In this document: one piece after another, positions 6,286 to 61,459 of the stretch
How the letters are laid out: every line of letters begins with the position of its first letter
How positions within the stretch are numbered: position 1 is the stretch's first letter
DNA from: Jeotgalicoccus saudimassiliensis
Lineage (GTDB): Bacteria > Bacillota > Bacilli > Staphylococcales > Salinicoccaceae
Direction: 5' to 3'
DNA: 64,000 bases
Assembly: GCF_000756715.1 (NCBI RefSeq)
Contig: NZ_CCSE01000001.1
Location: forward strand, 1,054,001-1,118,000
The notes under the pieces: model-generated
What the model saw: the letters and a program-made list of their open reading frames with translations, nothing else
What the model was told of the DNA's origin: nothing
The model's database searches: none
Made by a program: the position numbers and the translations under genes

Positions 6286-6571
6286 GGTTGGATTACAACG
6301 GCGGATTGGTGTTGTCATTCGAGTGTGTCCGGTTTACAACGGCGGACGCACGTTGTCATTCGAGCCCTCCCGGTTCACAACGGCGGACGCACGTTGTCAT
6401 TCGAACACCACCGGTTCACAACGGCGAACCACCGTTGTCATTCCAGCACCACCGGTTCACAACGGTGGACGACCGTTGTCATTCAAACACCACCGGTTTA
6501 CAACGGCGGACGCACGTTGTCATTCGAGCACCACCGGTTCACAACGGTGGACGACCGTTGTAAACCAAACC
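6286..6571. repeat. Array A: 7 tandem 41-bp units with ACAACGG/CCGTTGT dyad
   Basis: Core dyads start at 6295, 6336, 6377, 6418, 6459, 6500 and 6541, exactly 41 bp apart. Each core is ACAACG-N9-CGTTGT (the seventh pair is often also matched), with linkers such as CATTCGAGCACCACCGGTTC. The ends form a longer inverted pair: 6285-6301 matches the reverse complement of 6555-6571 at 15 of 17 positions. The array lies between the terminator of the pfkA-pyk-lipoprotein unit and the citZ promoter, so it probably falls outside both transcripts. Three overlapping plus-strand reading frames here are open only because the unit lacks stop triplets. Confidence 0.95.
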
Positions 6572-21586: not shown

Positions 21587-21708
21587 TCGACATTGTCAGT
21601 CAACTCAGTTTGAGTGACTATGTAGAAACGACACTGTCAGTCAACTCAGTTTGAATGACTATGTAGAAACGACACTGTCAGTCAACTCAGTTTGAATGAC
21701 AGTGTCGA
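21587..21708. repeat. Array C: 3 tandem 41-bp units
   Basis: GTCAGTCAACTCAGTTTGA recurs at 21595, 21636 and 21677, a 41-bp period. The family is unlike the others. Inside each unit AGTCA and TGACT face each other. The last unit closes a longer dyad, GACACTGTCA...TGACAGTGTC (10 of 10). The array ends form an inverted pair, TCGACATTGTCA (21587-21598) and the reverse complement of 21697-21708 (11 of 12). It fills the convergent gap between the unknown gene and ald. Confidence 0.92.
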
Positions 21709-21760
21709 AGTGAGCTCGTGATCCAAACACACAGCACCTCAAAAACTTTTATTTAATGCA

Positions 21761-31846: not shown

Positions 31847-31884
31847 GGATTTTGGGTGTCGATTGGCGTAATCGGGGGAGTCCC

Positions 31885-32284
31885 GGTTCACAACGGCGAA
31901 TCACCTTTGTCATTCCAGCTCCCCCGATTTACAACGGCGGATCACCGTTGTCATTCAAGCTCCCCCGGTTTACAACGGCGAATCACCGTTGTCATTCCAG
32001 CTCCCCCGGTTCACAACGGCGAATCACCGTTGTCATTCCAACTCCCCCGGTTCACAACGGCCGATCACCGTTGTCATTCAAGCTCCCCCGGTTCACAACG
32101 GCGGATCACCGTTGTCATTCCAACTCCCCCGGTTCACAACGGCGAATCACCGTTGTCATTCGGACACTCCTGGTTCACAACGGCGGATCACCGTTGTCAT
32201 TCGAGCTCCCCCGGTTCACAACGGCGGATCACCGTTGTCATTCAAGCTCCCCCGGTTTACAACGGCGAATCACCGTTGTCATTC
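31885..32284. repeat. Array E: 10 tandem 41-bp units, ACAACGG family
   Basis: Cores start at 31890, 31931, 31972, 32013, 32054, 32095, 32136, 32177, 32218 and 32259. The usual core is ACAACGGCGAATCACCGTTGT, a 7-bp inverted pair around seven bases; linkers are CATTC-(C/A)A(G/A)CTCCCCCGGTTC. It ends 14 bp from the stop codon of the minus-strand LysR gene, which has no other visible terminator, so this array may act as that gene's 3' end. Confidence 0.95.
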
Positions 32285-32297
32285 GAACTCACAAAAA

Positions 32298-33323: not shown

Positions 33324-34550
33324 ATGACTGATAAAAATAGCAATATCGAAGAGTTATTTATGAAACTGAATGCAGACAACGCTCCCGGACAGGAATCCCG
33401 TCAGAAAAATAATGAATTAAAATTAATCGGTGATAAAATCGAAGGGGAATACGTCGATTTTTCACACGGTGATGTGGATGCGCATAAACCGATTCCGGGT
33501 GTACTCGATCATTACATAGACGGTTTCAACACCGGCGGCAGTCAGGCATACACAGAATACCGCGGCCAGGCAGAACTGCTGAAAGAAACTGCAGAAAAGC
33601 TCGGCAGTTTCACCGGCACACATATTTCACCTGAGGATGAACTCATTATTACACCGGGCACCCAGGGTGCTCTCTTTCTTGCACTTGGTGCAACTGTAAC
33701 ATTCGGTGACAAAGTTGCGATTGTCGAACCGGACTACTTTGCGAACCGCAAACTCGTTCATTTTTTCCGCGGAGAAGTCGTACCTGTACAGATGGACTAT
33801 TTAAATCACGATGACAAAGCAGGAATCGACCTCAGTGAACTGGAGCAGGCATTCAAAAACGGTGTAAAAGTGTTCCTGTTCTCAAATCCCAATAATCCAA
33901 GCGGTGCAATTTACTCAAGTGAAGAAATTAATCAAATTGCAGAACTTGTTTCAAAATACGGTGTAACTGTCATCGCAGATGAGCTATACTCGAGACAGCT
34001 GTTCGATAATAGAGAATATACACATCTCATTGCCCACCCCGGGGTGGACAGAAATAAAATCATCACAATTATCGGACCGTCGAAAACTGAATCACTGAGC
34101 GGTTTCAGACTTGGAGCCGGTTTTGGTTCGTCTGAAATAATTGACCGCATGGAACAGCTTCAGGCTATCGTTTCACTCCGTGCGAGCGGTTATTCGCAGG
34201 CGGCACTAAAATCGTGGTTCAGCGAACCGGAAGGATGGATGGCAGAGCGCATCGAGTCACATCAGGCAATCCGCGATGATCTGGTTACACTTTTTAGGGA
34301 CGCAGGCTACAAAGTCCGGCTGACTGAAGCCGGCAGTTACGTTTTCCCGCAGGCTCAAAATTTATCGATTGATGATGTACAGATCGCAAAAATTTTAAGA
34401 GAACAGGCAAACGTTGCAGTAACACCTGGAACTGAGTTCGCACCATACTGCACGGACAGTTTCAGACTCAACTTTTCACAGGACCACGGTAAAGCCGTCG
34501 ATGCTGTGAAGAGAATAATTAAAGTATTGGAGAATTACAAAAATGGATAA
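33324..34550 (+). CDS. PLP-dependent aminotransferase, class I/II
   Basis: A 408-residue fold-type I aminotransferase. Visible motifs are TPGTQGALFLAL (phosphate site), FSNPNNPSGAI (Asn189-Gly194), Asp219 in VIADELYSR, the Schiff-base Lys254 in GPSKTESLSGFRLG and the C-terminal Arg in SFRLNFS. The substrate amino acid cannot be deduced. The downstream RidA gene overlaps by 8 nt, which fits an enzyme that releases reactive enamine/imine products. Start ATG at 33324 with CGGAGGT. Probably controlled by the divergent LysR protein. Confidence 0.93.
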   Translation: MTDKNSNIEELFMKLNADNAPGQESRQKNNELKLIGDKIEGEYVDFSHGDVDAHKPIPGVLDHYIDGFNTGGSQAYTEYRGQAELLKETAEKLGSFTGTHISPEDELIITPGTQGALFLALGATVTFGDKVAIVEPDYFANRKLVHFFRGEVVPVQMDYLNHDDKAGIDLSELEQAFKNGVKVFLFSNPNNPSGAIYSSEEINQIAELVSKYGVTVIADELYSRQLFDNREYTHLIAHPGVDRNKIITIIGPSKTESLSGFRLGAGFGSSEIIDRMEQLQAIVSLRASGYSQAALKSWFSEPEGWMAERIESHQAIRDDLVTLFRDAGYKVRLTEAGSYVFPQAQNLSIDDVQIAKILREQANVAVTPGTEFAPYCTDSFRLNFSQDHGKAVDAVKRIIKVLENYKNG

Positions 34551-34962
34551 CATGGTAGTTCCTAACGGAAGTTATAAGCTGGCAAAAAGAATTGGCGACG
34601 TGGTGTACACGTCGGGTATTACACCGAAAATTGACGGCGAACTGATTATGACAGGGAAAATCAGTGCTGCCGATGACATTTCCAAATATAAGGAAATAGC
34701 AGAACAGACAATCAAAAATGCGATTTACGTTACAGATCAGGAGCTGACACTGCACGAAAGTGTAACTGAAGTTGTCGATATGACAGTATACATCAATGCG
34801 TCGGATGACTTCACGCAGCACGCGCGTATCGCAGACTTCGCATCGGATTATCTCTTTAAAGTATTCGGCGAGGATGGACTTGGGACACGTACAGCAGTCG
34901 GCGTTTCATCGCTGCCGGACAACTCCCCGATCGAAATTAAATTAATTACAGCAGTTAAATAA
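34543..34962 (+). CDS. RidA-family protein (enamine/imine deaminase-like)
   Basis: A 139-residue YjgF/YER057c/UK114 protein. Features: VPNGSYKLAKRIGDVVYTSGITP (start to ~residue 27), VDMTVYINASDDF, the conserved Arg in GLGTRTAVGVSSLP and the Glu in PIEIKL. RidA proteins hydrolyse imines made by PLP enzymes. It overlaps the aminotransferase by 8 nt, so the two are co-translated and probably act in sequence. GGAG lies 10 nt before the ATG. Confidence 0.93.
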   Translation: MDNMVVPNGSYKLAKRIGDVVYTSGITPKIDGELIMTGKISAADDISKYKEIAEQTIKNAIYVTDQELTLHESVTEVVDMTVYINASDDFTQHARIADFASDYLFKVFGEDGLGTRTAVGVSSLPDNSPIEIKLITAVK

Positions 34963-34972
34963 TTACACGATA

Positions 34973-35010
34973 AAAACCGGGCTCTTATTAATAGAGACCC
35001 GGTTTTATTT
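34973..35010 (+). terminator. Terminator after ridA-like gene
   Basis: The stem AAAACCGGG-CTCT/AGAG-A-CCCGGTTTT is followed by ATTT. A-runs upstream allow activity in both directions. Confidence 0.85.
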
Positions 35011-35025
35011 GTGATGGTGCCGGCC

Positions 35026-35466
35026 GGTTTACAACGGCGGACCACCGTTGTCATTCCAGCGCTCCCGGTTTACAACGGTGGACGCACGTTGTCATTCCAG
35101 CACCCCCGGTTCACAACGGTGGATGCACGTTGTCATTCCAGCACCCCCGGTTCACAACGGTGGATGCACGTTGTCATTCCAACACCCCCGGTTCACAACG
35201 GCGGACGACCGATGTCATTCCAGCACTCCCGGTTCACAACGGCAGACGCACGTTGTCATTCCAACACCCCCGGTTTACAACAGCGGACGCACGTTGTCAT
35301 TCCAACACCCCCGGTTCACAACAGCGGATCACCGTTGTCATTCCAACACCCCCGGTTCACAACGGCGGACGCACGTTGTCATTCCAACACTCCCGGTTCA
35401 CAACAGCAAACGCACGTTGTCATTCCAGCATCCCCGGTTCACAACGGTGGACCACCGTTGTAAACC
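35026..35466. repeat. Array F: 11 tandem 41-bp units, ACAACGG family
   Basis: Cores lie every 41 bp from 35031 to 35441. The usual form is ACAACGG(C/T)GGACGCACGTTGT; some units have ACAACAG. The ends are a perfect 12-bp inverted pair: GGTTTACAACGG at 35026-35037 and CCGTTGTAAACC at 35455-35466, so the last unit has a different right arm (AAACC) from the inner units (CATTCC). The array lies between two terminators in a convergent gap. Confidence 0.96.
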
Positions 35467-35492
35467 AACTCAACAACCAGTCAATCCCAAAC

Positions 35493-35516
35493 AAAAAAAG
35501 AGACCTTCCGGTCTCT
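35493..35516 (-). terminator. Terminator after thiI
   Basis: The stem AGAGACC/GGTCTCT (loop TTCC region) is followed by TTTTTT on the minus strand. Confidence 0.85.
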
Positions 35517-35524
35517 TCGCTCAC

Positions 35525-36727
35525 CTACAGCAGATCGCTGAATTCATCTTTAGTTTCTTCTTTTTTAGACGGCATATACACTTCGATATTTTCCATCGCT
35601 TTATCGATCATCGGTTCAAAGTCCACCGCGCTTTCGAATTTCTTAACCGATTCAAGTGACGGTTTTGTTTTCGGTGCTTTCGGTTTGAATATCGTGCAGC
35701 AGTCTTCAAACGGCAGAATGGAAGTTTCGTAAGTGCCCATCTGCTTCGCCATTTTCACAATGTCATTTTTCTCAAGTGTCAATAACGGACGGAGTACCGG
35801 CAGTGTTGTCACTTCGTTAATTGCGAACATGCTTGTTAACGTCTGTGATGCGACCTGTCCCAGATTCTCACCGTTCACTACCGCTTCCCCGCCGATTTTC
35901 ATCGTCAGTTTTTCAGCAACTCTCAGCATAATACGTCGTGTGGATGTCATCGACAGGTTATCCGGAATTCGGTCGTATAACGTTGTCTGCAGTTCAGTGA
36001 ACGGCACGATGTGAAGTTTAATATCGTAACCTGTTCTCTCACTCATAATGTCGACAAGGGCTTTAACTTTGTCCGTTGCCTGCGGGCTCGTGTACGGCGG
36101 TGAGTGGAAGTGAATCGCTTCGATTTCCACACCTCTGCGCATAATATCGATGCCCGCCACAGGTGAGTCTATCCCGCCAGACAGCATCAATAATGCTTTA
36201 CCGCCGGTACCAAGCGGCAGTCCGCCGAGTCCTTTTATCGTTTCGTAATACATGTAAATCGCATCTGGTCTGATTTCAGCCAGTATTTTGTAATCCGGTT
36301 TTCTGACATCTACTATCAGATGCGTCGTGTGGTCAAAAATGTGATTTCCAAGCAGCTGCTGCACACCGTATGTGTCCAGGTGATACTGCTTGTCTGCGCG
36401 CTTAACTTCAATTTTAAAAGTGTGTCCCGGCTCAATTTCATTGGCAAACTGGAGGGCTGTATCTTTCATTGCCTCATCCGTTTTATCGATTTTAATCACC
36501 GGTGACATGCTTAAAATACCGCTGATGTTCATCAGCTTGTCGATAATCTCATGCGGATTCTCTTCGTTGATTTCAATATAGGCACGGTCGCGGTTGGCTT
36601 TAACTTCTACATTAAAATCCTTCAGCGCTTTATTCATGCGGTCGCGCAGTGCGTGCACGAACATTCTTCTGTTTTTCGTTTTCAGCGTCAGTTCGCCGTA
36701 ACGGATTAATATGTGATCAAATTTCAT
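35525..36727 (-). CDS. thiI: tRNA 4-thiouridine / thiamine thiazole sulfurtransferase
   Basis: A 400-residue cytosolic enzyme. An N-terminal ferredoxin-like and THUMP region (residues ~1-165, MKFDHILIRYGELTLK) binds tRNA, and a PP-loop ATPase domain has SGGIDSP at 183-189. There is no C-terminal rhodanese domain, as is usual in Gram-positive ThiI, so sulfur must come from the partner cysteine desulfurase. That gene lies directly upstream and overlaps by 4 nt (ATGA). Confidence 0.95.
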   Translation of the reverse strand: MKFDHILIRYGELTLKTKNRRMFVHALRDRMNKALKDFNVEVKANRDRAYIEINEENPHEIIDKLMNISGILSMSPVIKIDKTDEAMKDTALQFANEIEPGHTFKIEVKRADKQYHLDTYGVQQLLGNHIFDHTTHLIVDVRKPDYKILAEIRPDAIYMYYETIKGLGGLPLGTGGKALLMLSGGIDSPVAGIDIMRRGVEIEAIHFHSPPYTSPQATDKVKALVDIMSERTGYDIKLHIVPFTELQTTLYDRIPDNLSMTSTRRIMLRVAEKLTMKIGGEAVVNGENLGQVASQTLTSMFAINEVTTLPVLRPLLTLEKNDIVKMAKQMGTYETSILPFEDCCTIFKPKAPKTKPSLESVKKFESAVDFEPMIDKAMENIEVYMPSKKEETKDEFSDLL

Positions 36728-41097: not shown

Positions 41098-41538
41098 GGG
41101 TGACAACGGCGGGTTGGTGTTGTTAATCGGGACTGATCGATTCACAACGGGAAACCGCCGTTGTCATCCGGGACTGATCGATTCACAACGGGAAACCGCC
41201 GTTGTCATCCGGGGTGCGTCGGTTCACAACGGGGAAGCGCCGTTGTCAACCGGGGCCGATCGATTCACAACGGGCAATCACCGTTGTCAACCGGGACTGA
41301 TCGATTCACAACGGGCAATCACCGTTGTCAACCGGGACTGCTTGATTCACAACGGGGAACCGCCGTTGTCATCCGGGGTGCGTCGGTTCACAACGGGAAA
41401 CCGCCGTTGTCAACCGGGGCCGATCGATTCACAACGGGGAACCGCCGTTGTCATCCGGGGTGCGTCGATTCACAACGGGGAACCGCCGTTGTCAACCGGG
41501 GCCGATCGATTCACAACGGGGAACCGCCGTTGTCAACC
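41098..41538. repeat. Array G: 11 tandem 41-bp units, ACAACGG family
   Basis: Cores start every 41 bp from 41103 to 41513. The usual core is ACAACGGGGAACCGCCGTTGT. Linkers come in types: CATCCGGGGTGCGTCGGTTC and CAACCGGGGCCGATCGATTC alternate three times, which indicates duplication of 82-bp pairs. The outer ends are GGGTGACAACGG and, inverted, GGTTGACAACGG (11 of 12). The array sits between the rpsD and cold-shock-gene terminators in a convergent gap. Confidence 0.95.
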
Positions 41539-41577
41539 GACAGCTCACCTTCCCCACAGTCCTCCTCAATCATACAA

Positions 41578-41611
41578 AATAAAAAAGAGATACCCGGAGG
41601 TATCTCTTAAG
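41578..41611 (-). terminator. Terminator after cold-shock gene
   Basis: The stem AAGAGATACC/GGTATCTCTT is followed by TTTTTATT on the minus strand. Confidence 0.88.
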
Positions 41612-41625
41612 AATTTAACTATTTA

Positions 41626-41826
41626 TTAAACAGTTGCAACGTTGACAGCTTGTGGTCCGCGTTGTCCTTCTTCGATTTCGAAAGTAACTTTTTGACCTTC
41701 TTCTAAAGTTTTGTATCCTTCACCCTGGATTGCTGAGAAGTGTACGAATACGTCGTCTCCAGCTTCCTGCTCGATGAAACCAAAACCTTTTTCAGCGTTA
41801 AACCATTTTACAGTTCCTTCATTCAT
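41626..41826 (-). CDS. Cold-shock domain protein (CspA family)
   Basis: A 66-residue single-stranded nucleic-acid chaperone. RNP1 (KGFGFI) and RNP2 (VFVHF) are intact, from [18 protein letters not shown] to [10 protein letters not shown]. The ATG at 41826 lies 8 nt after AAGGAGG; the longer frame to 41853 has no ribosome site. A promoter about 120 nt upstream gives a long leader, as is common for csp mRNAs. Confidence 0.95.
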
Positions 41827-41945
41827 TGAAAAAACCTCCTTGTGCTCATGCACGTGTTATTTTTTGCAGTTTTAAACATTTAAAAGAGTTTTTTCAGTAA
41901 TATGAATAGAAACTATTTAAACTTTGACTTAAAAACTACATTCTT

Positions 41946-51285: not shown

Positions 51286-51306
51286 GAGCTGTGCAAATAA
51301 AAATAC

Positions 51307-51345
51307 GAAGAGGTTCTTAGCCATACCCTCTTAAAAAAACTAAGA
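51307..51345 (+). ncRNA. PreQ1 class I riboswitch
   Basis: AGAGGTTCTTAGC, ACCCTCT and AAAAAAACTAAG occur in the order and spacing of the class I aptamer: stem AGAGG/CCTCT, the C-containing loop, then the A-rich strand that closes the pseudoknot. A terminator follows directly, so preQ1 should stop transcription of queF and the transporter gene. Confidence 0.93.
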
Positions 51346-51352
51346 CACACTG

Positions 51353-60591: not shown

Positions 60592-61083
60592 ATGAGGAGA
60601 TTAATGTTTTTAGTGCCGTTTATCGTATTATTCCTCGGTGCGTGCAGCAGTGAATCCGAAGAAAACTATACGCAGATGCTCGGTGCTTTCGAGCGAAACG
60701 ACAGTGAGCTGAATACGAAACTCGATGAAACGGCGAAAAACATAAGTAAAGAGTCCAACCGGGACAAAGCTCTTCAAAGTATTAATGACGATATTATTCC
60801 AAGTATCGGCGATTTCCGCCAGACCATTAATAATTACACGCTGACAGATGAAAATCATCTGGAAGTTCAGGATGCGATGACTGATTACCTCGACCAGGTA
60901 GAAGACTTGATGGTGCTGTACAGTAACCTTAATGAAGATTTCTTTTTCGTTAATCCGCTCGGTGATGATTCCATTGATGAAAGATTAAACACTGCGCTCG
61001 ACAACATCAGCGCTCAGGAAAAAGAAATGCATGAAGCGAAAGAAAAAGTCAATCAGCTGATTGGAGACAATCAGGCAGAATAA
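60592..61083 (+). CDS. Predicted lipoprotein, helical, unknown function
   Basis: A 163-residue lipoprotein with signal peptide MRRLMFLVPFIVLFLGAC (lipobox LGAC, Cys18). The mature part is highly charged and helical (EENYTQMLGAFERNDSELN to EKEMHEAKEKVNQLIG) and may form a coiled-coil bundle. I do not recognise the family. ATG at 60592 behind GAGGTG. Divergent from the MFS gene; it runs into array I 33 bp after its stop codon without its own terminator. Confidence 0.78.
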   Translation: MRRLMFLVPFIVLFLGACSSESEENYTQMLGAFERNDSELNTKLDETAKNISKESNRDKALQSINDDIIPSIGDFRQTINNYTLTDENHLEVQDAMTDYLDQVEDLMVLYSNLNEDFFFVNPLGDDSIDERLNTALDNISAQEKEMHEAKEKVNQLIGDNQAE

Positions 61084-61115
61084 CCGGTGTGTGTTGGTTG
61101 GGGTTGGATGGGGTT

Positions 61116-61392
61116 GGTTCACAACGGCCAGCCGCCGTTGTGAATCGATAAGACCCGGATGACAACGGCCAATCACCGTTGTGAACCGGCAGACCCCGAA
61201 TGACAACGGGACATCGCCGTTGTGAACCGACAGACCCCGAATGACAACGGGACATCACTGTTGTGAACCGGCAGACCCCGAATGACAACGGGACATCACT
61301 GTTGTGAACCGACAGACCCCGGATGACAACGGGACATCACCGTTGTGAACCGACAGACCCCGGATGACAACGGCACACCGCCGTTGTCATCC
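61116..61392. repeat. Array I: 7 tandem 41-bp units, ACAACGG family, reverse orientation
   Basis: Cores start at 61121, 61162, 61203, 61244, 61285, 61326 and 61367. The core is ACAACGGGACATC(A/G)C(C/T)GTTGT. Inner units read GGATGAC-core-GTGAACC, the reverse of arrays A, E, F and G (GGTTCAC-core-GTCATTC). The first unit is flanked by GGTTCAC/GTGAATC and the last by GGATGAC/GTCATCC, so each end unit is nearly symmetric. It fills the convergent gap before the dipeptidase terminator. Confidence 0.95.
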
Positions 61393-61427
61393 GACCCACC
61401 CAAACCCCAAACCACACATACAAATTC

Positions 61428-61459
61428 ACCCCGCAGATCTTATAATCTGCGGGGTATTT
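61428..61459. terminator. Terminator between array I and dipeptidase gene
   Basis: The stem ACCCCGCAGAT/ATCTGCGGGGT has T5 on the plus strand and a weaker T-tract on the minus strand. It may stop transcripts from both convergent genes. Confidence 0.75.

Follow-up and report, generated by a model that had tools for sequence, protein, structure and literature searches.

Palindromic repeats are common in bacterial genomes, and the growth of their arrays, its stopping and the mutation of the units are rarely visible; a 64,000-nucleotide stretch of the Jeotgalicoccus saudimassiliensis chromosome (the window) carries an array whose mirrored ends raise the question of what shapes the edges of such repeats. 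This array, F (35026–35466), is made of 11 dyad units with a period of 41 bp; its unit consists of a left arm (GGTTY-ACAACGG), a 7-nt loop, a right arm (CCGTTGT-CATTC) and a spacer of about 10 nt and is, like the units of the other arrays, an imperfect palindrome with a mismatch built into its outer arms. In the first-pass annotation F was given perfect inverted ends and an altered last unit, as if the ends were defined by a recognition event. The boundaries named there were correct: GGTTTACAACGG (35026–35037, + strand) and CCGTTGTAAACC (35455–35466, read directly as the last right arm) bound the array exactly and enclose 11 dyads spaced exactly 41 bp apart, and CATTC closes the right arms of units 1–10 as stated, AAACC being found in unit 11 only. 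Alteration of the ends was borne out on the right and not on the left, since the first left arm is an ordinary one and its GGTTT is shared with inner units 2 and 7. The last unit (35436–35466, + strand) is a near-perfect palindrome, GGTTCACAACGG-tggacca-CCGTTGTAAACC, in which the complement of a left arm stands in place of CATTC; its AAACC pairs at 4/5 positions with GGTTC of its own unit and at 5/5 with the first unit of the array. The greater symmetry ascribed to this dyad was also found, 12 of its 15 arm positions being paired against 7–8 in inner units and 9 in the first.

F sits between two converging genes, with terminator-like sites beyond the array on either side. A GC stem with a T tract (34973–35010, + strand), probably the intrinsic terminator of the upstream + strand gene (34543–34962), was read from the sequence and is absent from the terminator scan list; the scan returned an intrinsic-terminator-like site at 35497–35518 (− strand) for the − strand gene at 35525–36727, and both sites are outside F. 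The latter gene, which we take to be thiI-like, encodes a protein with 92% identity to its J. coquinae counterpart. F is flanked by GT-rich sequence on the left (35008–35025; the 30 nt preceding the called array have a keto fraction of 0.70) and by AC-rich sequence on the right (35467–35496; 0.13 in the 30 nt that follow it). No match to F was obtained in plasmid and phage collections, and an origin from either was rejected on this ground; Rfam placed no RNA family on any array of the window, and the reading of the arrays as an RNA family was likewise rejected. The Rfam matches in the window were a cspA thermoregulator (41581–41928, − strand) and a PreQ1 riboswitch (51304–51349, + strand), both off the arrays.

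Nine arrays of period 41 or 42 are present in the window. Array A (6290–6566; F family, 7 units) has a partly swapped left end arm (GGATT) and a swapped right one (AAACC), its last unit (core at 6541) closing with CCGTTGTAAACC as that of F does, just as had been noted before; array E (31882–32291; F family, 10 units) has ordinary ends with no swapped arm; array G (41098–41539; F family, 11 units) has a swapped left end arm (GGGTG); and array I (61116–61401; F family in inverted orientation, 7 units) has both end arms swapped. Array C (21588–21709; 3 units of 41 bp) is unlike F in sequence and ends in a unit that forms the palindrome CGACACTGTCA...TGACAGTGTCG, the inner right arms being TGACTATGTAG. 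Beyond the window, 464 kb around known arrays and 400 kb in spread blocks were sampled, together about 39% of the genome (a 2.19-Mb chromosome), and the 64 kb orthologous to the window were taken from seven sister species for comparison; genes were simple ORF calls, only dnaA, sbcC and sbcD being taken from family searches. Long non-coding arrays were found with periods of 41, 42 or 51 bp only; loose single linkage sorted 67 arrays into 10 groups with one period per group (a large one of 41 bp, in which several families may be chained, one of 42 bp, two of 51 bp and others). The 51-bp dyad arrays, in two families, lie at L090 17209–17831, L149 1512–1802, L157 10308–10966 and L159 8214–8614. 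Periods of 41/42 and 51 with none at 43–50 suggest whole helical turns. A set of 72 loci of other genera (1.4 Mb) yielded four rows of period 42 and none of period 41; the F-type core (at most one mismatch) occurs 236 times in J. saudimassiliensis, 0–39 times in sister species and 0–2 times in other genera of the family. A search of one literature collection returned no relevant paper on Jeotgalicoccus tandem repeats.

For comparison of end and inner units, the dyads were placed in every array and the paired positions were counted as a symmetry score; in addition, the outer arms of 23 F-family arrays were classified, with first units unclassifiable in three of them (A, L096 8199 and L099 3664). 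The end units are a statistically distinct class, as the comparison proposed in the first-pass annotation brought out when run on the F family: a swapped arm was found in 13 of 43 classifiable end units and in 0 of 191 inner units (p = 5e-11; p-values that treat arrays as independent are too small, because the arrays of one genome share descent). Without exception the swap affects the outermost arm, which thereby comes to complement its partner in the hairpin; the swap was seen in 8 of the 23 last units and in 5 of the 20 first units that could be classified, at both ends of four arrays (if A is counted, the left end of which is only partly swapped) and at one end of six, including F. No clear swap was seen at either end of 11 to 13 of the 23 arrays, and within each array all inner units (191 altogether) keep one orientation. 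By symmetry score the last unit exceeded every inner unit in 11 of 24 F-family arrays (at most 3.2 expected) and in 20 of 52 arrays overall (at most 10.6 expected), and the mean difference between last and inner units in the 24 F-family arrays was reached by 0 of 20000 permutations; the excess was weaker for first units (p = 0.007) and smaller in families other than that of F (p = 0.02 for last units and p = 0.03 for first units). As the classes were defined after the first arrays had been seen, the closest approach to an independent test comes from other families and other species, in which the swap recurs in unrelated sequence: in array C, at G007 45730 (end arm TCATGCCAGTCC, inner arm TCATGTGTATCC) and at G002 58819. 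Changes in last units affected the right arm only in 109 cases and the left arm only in 29. At positions unpaired in the inner consensus, changes in the outermost arm restored pairing in 65–69% (one third expected), and inner units also lean to pairing (53–58% of changes).

The end units carry a second, strand-asymmetric signature, read here on the assumption that change ran from the inner to the end sequence: C>T and A>G on the left, with the mirror changes on the right. In first units C>T plus A>G amounted to 10.1% against 4.2% for the reverse (p = 1.7e-5), the mirrored bias was found in last units (p = 3.5e-4), and the bias fades in the second unit from the edge and is gone by the third. 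The same polarity runs outwards. Flanks are GT-rich on the left and AC-rich on the right over about 60 bp around most of 53 arrays, symmetrically for both strands (array I, window 61081–61115 and 61402–61435, is an example); the G+T fraction is 0.69 in the 30 nt left of arrays and 0.29 in the 30 nt right of them, and the keto fraction falls from about 0.73 beside arrays to background over about 60–75 nt (control 0.51). The keto bias is there beside gene 3' and 5' ends alike; being present beside gene starts too, it goes with the array, whichever way transcription runs. The flanks are complementary in composition far more than in sequence: inverted matching of flanks of the same array compared with those of other arrays gave p = 0.2–0.3 at 50 nt and a weak signal at 30 nt (p = 0.02–0.03), and the idea that whole flanks are long inverted repeats, suggested by site I, was rejected, the flanks of one array matching hardly better than those of different arrays.

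The many arrays differ in sequence, share the same few periods and can be compared at the same sites across sister species. Site H holds a solo palindrome in two relatives, 4 units in one and 12 here; site D has 3 units in G003 and about 10 in G006 with similar end units; the F site has about one partial unit in G003 against five in G006; and at site A a solo F-type palindrome is found in G002. A solo palindrome or a shorter array at some relatives' sites points to growth in place. The same gene gaps of G002, G003, G006 and G007 also hold arrays of other sequence with the same period, so that sites persist while sequence turns over, and the fixed period suggests a constraint from the helical phasing of dyads. 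Loss of SbcCD as a cause of palindrome growth was rejected, sbcC and sbcD being present in all nine genomes (the sbcC matches were below the curated cut-off, yet lay in frames of about 1000 aa, or in pieces in the incomplete G008).

Judged from the sequences, F may be a palindromic minisatellite of bacterial type, lying between the 3' ends of a converging gene pair and belonging to a genus-wide set of dyad arrays, with edges shaped by copying within hairpins and by strand-biased transitions, a reading whose chances we consider about even. Unit number does change between species, and such gain and loss of whole units would keep interior units alike, with the edge units escaping homogenisation. 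Synthesis on a hairpin of an edge unit, during replication or repair, could then switch template and copy the partner arm, turning the outermost arm into the partner's complement and the terminal unit into a near-perfect palindrome. The strand with its 3' end pointing into the array would meanwhile gain C>T and A>G, presumably through recurrent single-strandedness at the edges, which would yield GGTTC>GGTTT, GAACC>AAACC and flanks that are rich in GT on the left and in AC on the right; AAACC of F would be GAACC, the complement of GGTTC, plus one G>A step. An end-recognising enzyme would be unnecessary, and hairpin copying with edge wear explains the mirrored end better than such an enzyme does. 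Such template switching is the described mechanism of quasipalindrome mutation, and between the arms of inverted repeats it is reported to homogenise the arms (PMC8604942, PMC7202029); there, as proposed here, the arms of an imperfect repeat are made identical by copying one of them, whereas the event that we propose would show itself at array edges alone, the part of a tandem array in which homogenisation does not erase it. Against a template switch, the swapped arm in F, A and L096 is AAACC facing a GGTTC left arm of its own, which would need the extra G>A step each time; and across the F family, last right arms matched the left arm of the same unit no more closely than left arms taken from other arrays (p = 0.19), which leaves the own partner a presumed template.

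As a wider and more doubtful possibility, the arrays could be helically phased sites of chronic single-strand exposure or breakage, surrounded on both sides by a mutational apron, in which the strand that enters the array is GT-rich whichever side it comes from, and closed by hairpin-copied ends that record repair. If so, periods of four and five helical turns, the density in the terminus half and the replichore-tied orientation would point to a replication-linked function. The edges of the arrays show two directional signatures, apparent copying of the partner arm and transitions running into the flanks, which opens the mechanism of array growth and of hairpin-linked mutation to direct test in a cultivable genus.

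The four arrays swapped at both ends would also be expected from inversion of the array interior by recombination between the palindromic cores of the end units, which converts L core R into L core rc(L), inverted units and rc(R) core R and so makes both ends perfect at once. This predicts the both-ends pattern exactly in array I, in F of G007 and in L096 10054, and nearly in A, and arrays do occur in both orientations; recombination between end cores cannot, however, yield the six one-end swaps, that of F among them, and no breakpoint of a partial inversion was seen in any of the 191 inner units, which leaves interior inversion rather unlikely. A founder of two different perfect palindromes with hybrid inner units, which would fit the both-end cases and not the one-end cases, was rejected, the solo palindromes of relatives being already asymmetric.

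Unlikely, too, is that the arrays are phased platforms for a putative dimeric DNA-binding or topology protein at gene 3' ends, with the symmetric end unit as a selected boundary site. BIMEs have been proposed as gyrase binding platforms, and the periods found here are close to four and five helical turns. Among gaps of 100 bp or more, arrays were found in 34 of 74 convergent, 27 of 247 tandem and 1 of 104 divergent ones, and they are denser at 0.65–1.35 Mb of the chromosome (8 in 160 kb of spread blocks, compared with 3 in 360 kb elsewhere, p = 0.005), around the GC-skew switch at about 0.89–0.95 Mb that was taken as the terminus; both distributions would suit a platform, but inert repeats are also expected to avoid divergent gaps, and common descent may link families that have one period, in which case their phasing is not independent evidence. 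Several families with no obvious common motif are hardly the target of one sequence-specific protein, and end units are not symmetric in general.

That the array is a MITE-like or BOX-like mobile element with terminal inverted repeats on which a transposase acts, a reading in line with the recognition event of the first-pass annotation, is quite improbable. Families do occur at many loci, and at different ones in sister species, G002, G003 and G007 lack an array at site I, and the outer arms match in some arrays. The idea of ends set by a recognition event nevertheless found no support: most ends are ordinary, which argues against an obligate event, and no end sequence is common to all arrays. 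First left and last right arms match at 3.25/5 positions within an array and 3.10/5 between arrays (p = 0.23), so that terminal inverted repeats specific to an array, as in a MITE or transposon, were not found; by eye no target-site duplication was seen at site I, the flanks of which are diverged; F had no plasmid or phage match; and growth in place, as suggested by some relatives' sites, speaks against insertion. The RAYT (Y1) transposase (PF01797) had 0 matches in the genome, the control being positive in five genomes, and a RAYT/REPIN origin was rejected on the same result. A CRISPR array was rejected, as the spacers recur from unit to unit.

Among known systems, the arrays resemble in build the BOX elements of Streptococcus pneumoniae (boxA-boxBn-boxC; PMC3049150), which are likewise intergenic and hairpin-forming, have a tandem inner module of variable number between differing end modules and vary more in length when large. 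A variable-copy inner module was found here; conserved, distinct ends like boxA and boxC were not, the ends being ordinary or, in about one third, changed in one arm, and several families sharing few periods, with strand-biased flanks, are a further difference. REP/BIME sequences are GTAG/CGTC palindromes associated with RAYT, with head-to-tail dimers rare among GTAG REPs (PMC3733652); they resemble the present units in being small imperfect palindromes, found singly, as dimers or in clusters and for the most part downstream of genes, but the arrays here are strictly head-to-tail with a fixed period, in a Firmicute host without RAYT, and the feet of the ACAACGG-family palindromes are of the GGTTC and CATTC types and have no GTAG/CGTC tag. 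Since neither conserved end modules nor a GTAG tag with RAYT was found, the arrays were filed under neither system. Head-to-tail units whose copy number varies between genomes, as in a minisatellite (VNTR), were found, the variation being between species.

Separately, the orientation of F-type units was compared with replichore: it was + in 13 of 14 arrays in negative-skew sequence and − in 6 of 9 in positive-skew sequence (Fisher about 0.005, calculated by hand), and not all families other than the F-type agree with it. The replichores of this chromosome look very unequal (about 0.65 and 1.5 Mb), with dnaA at 1606823 and skew switches near 0.9 and 1.5 Mb, which would reflect a large inversion or a question of assembly.
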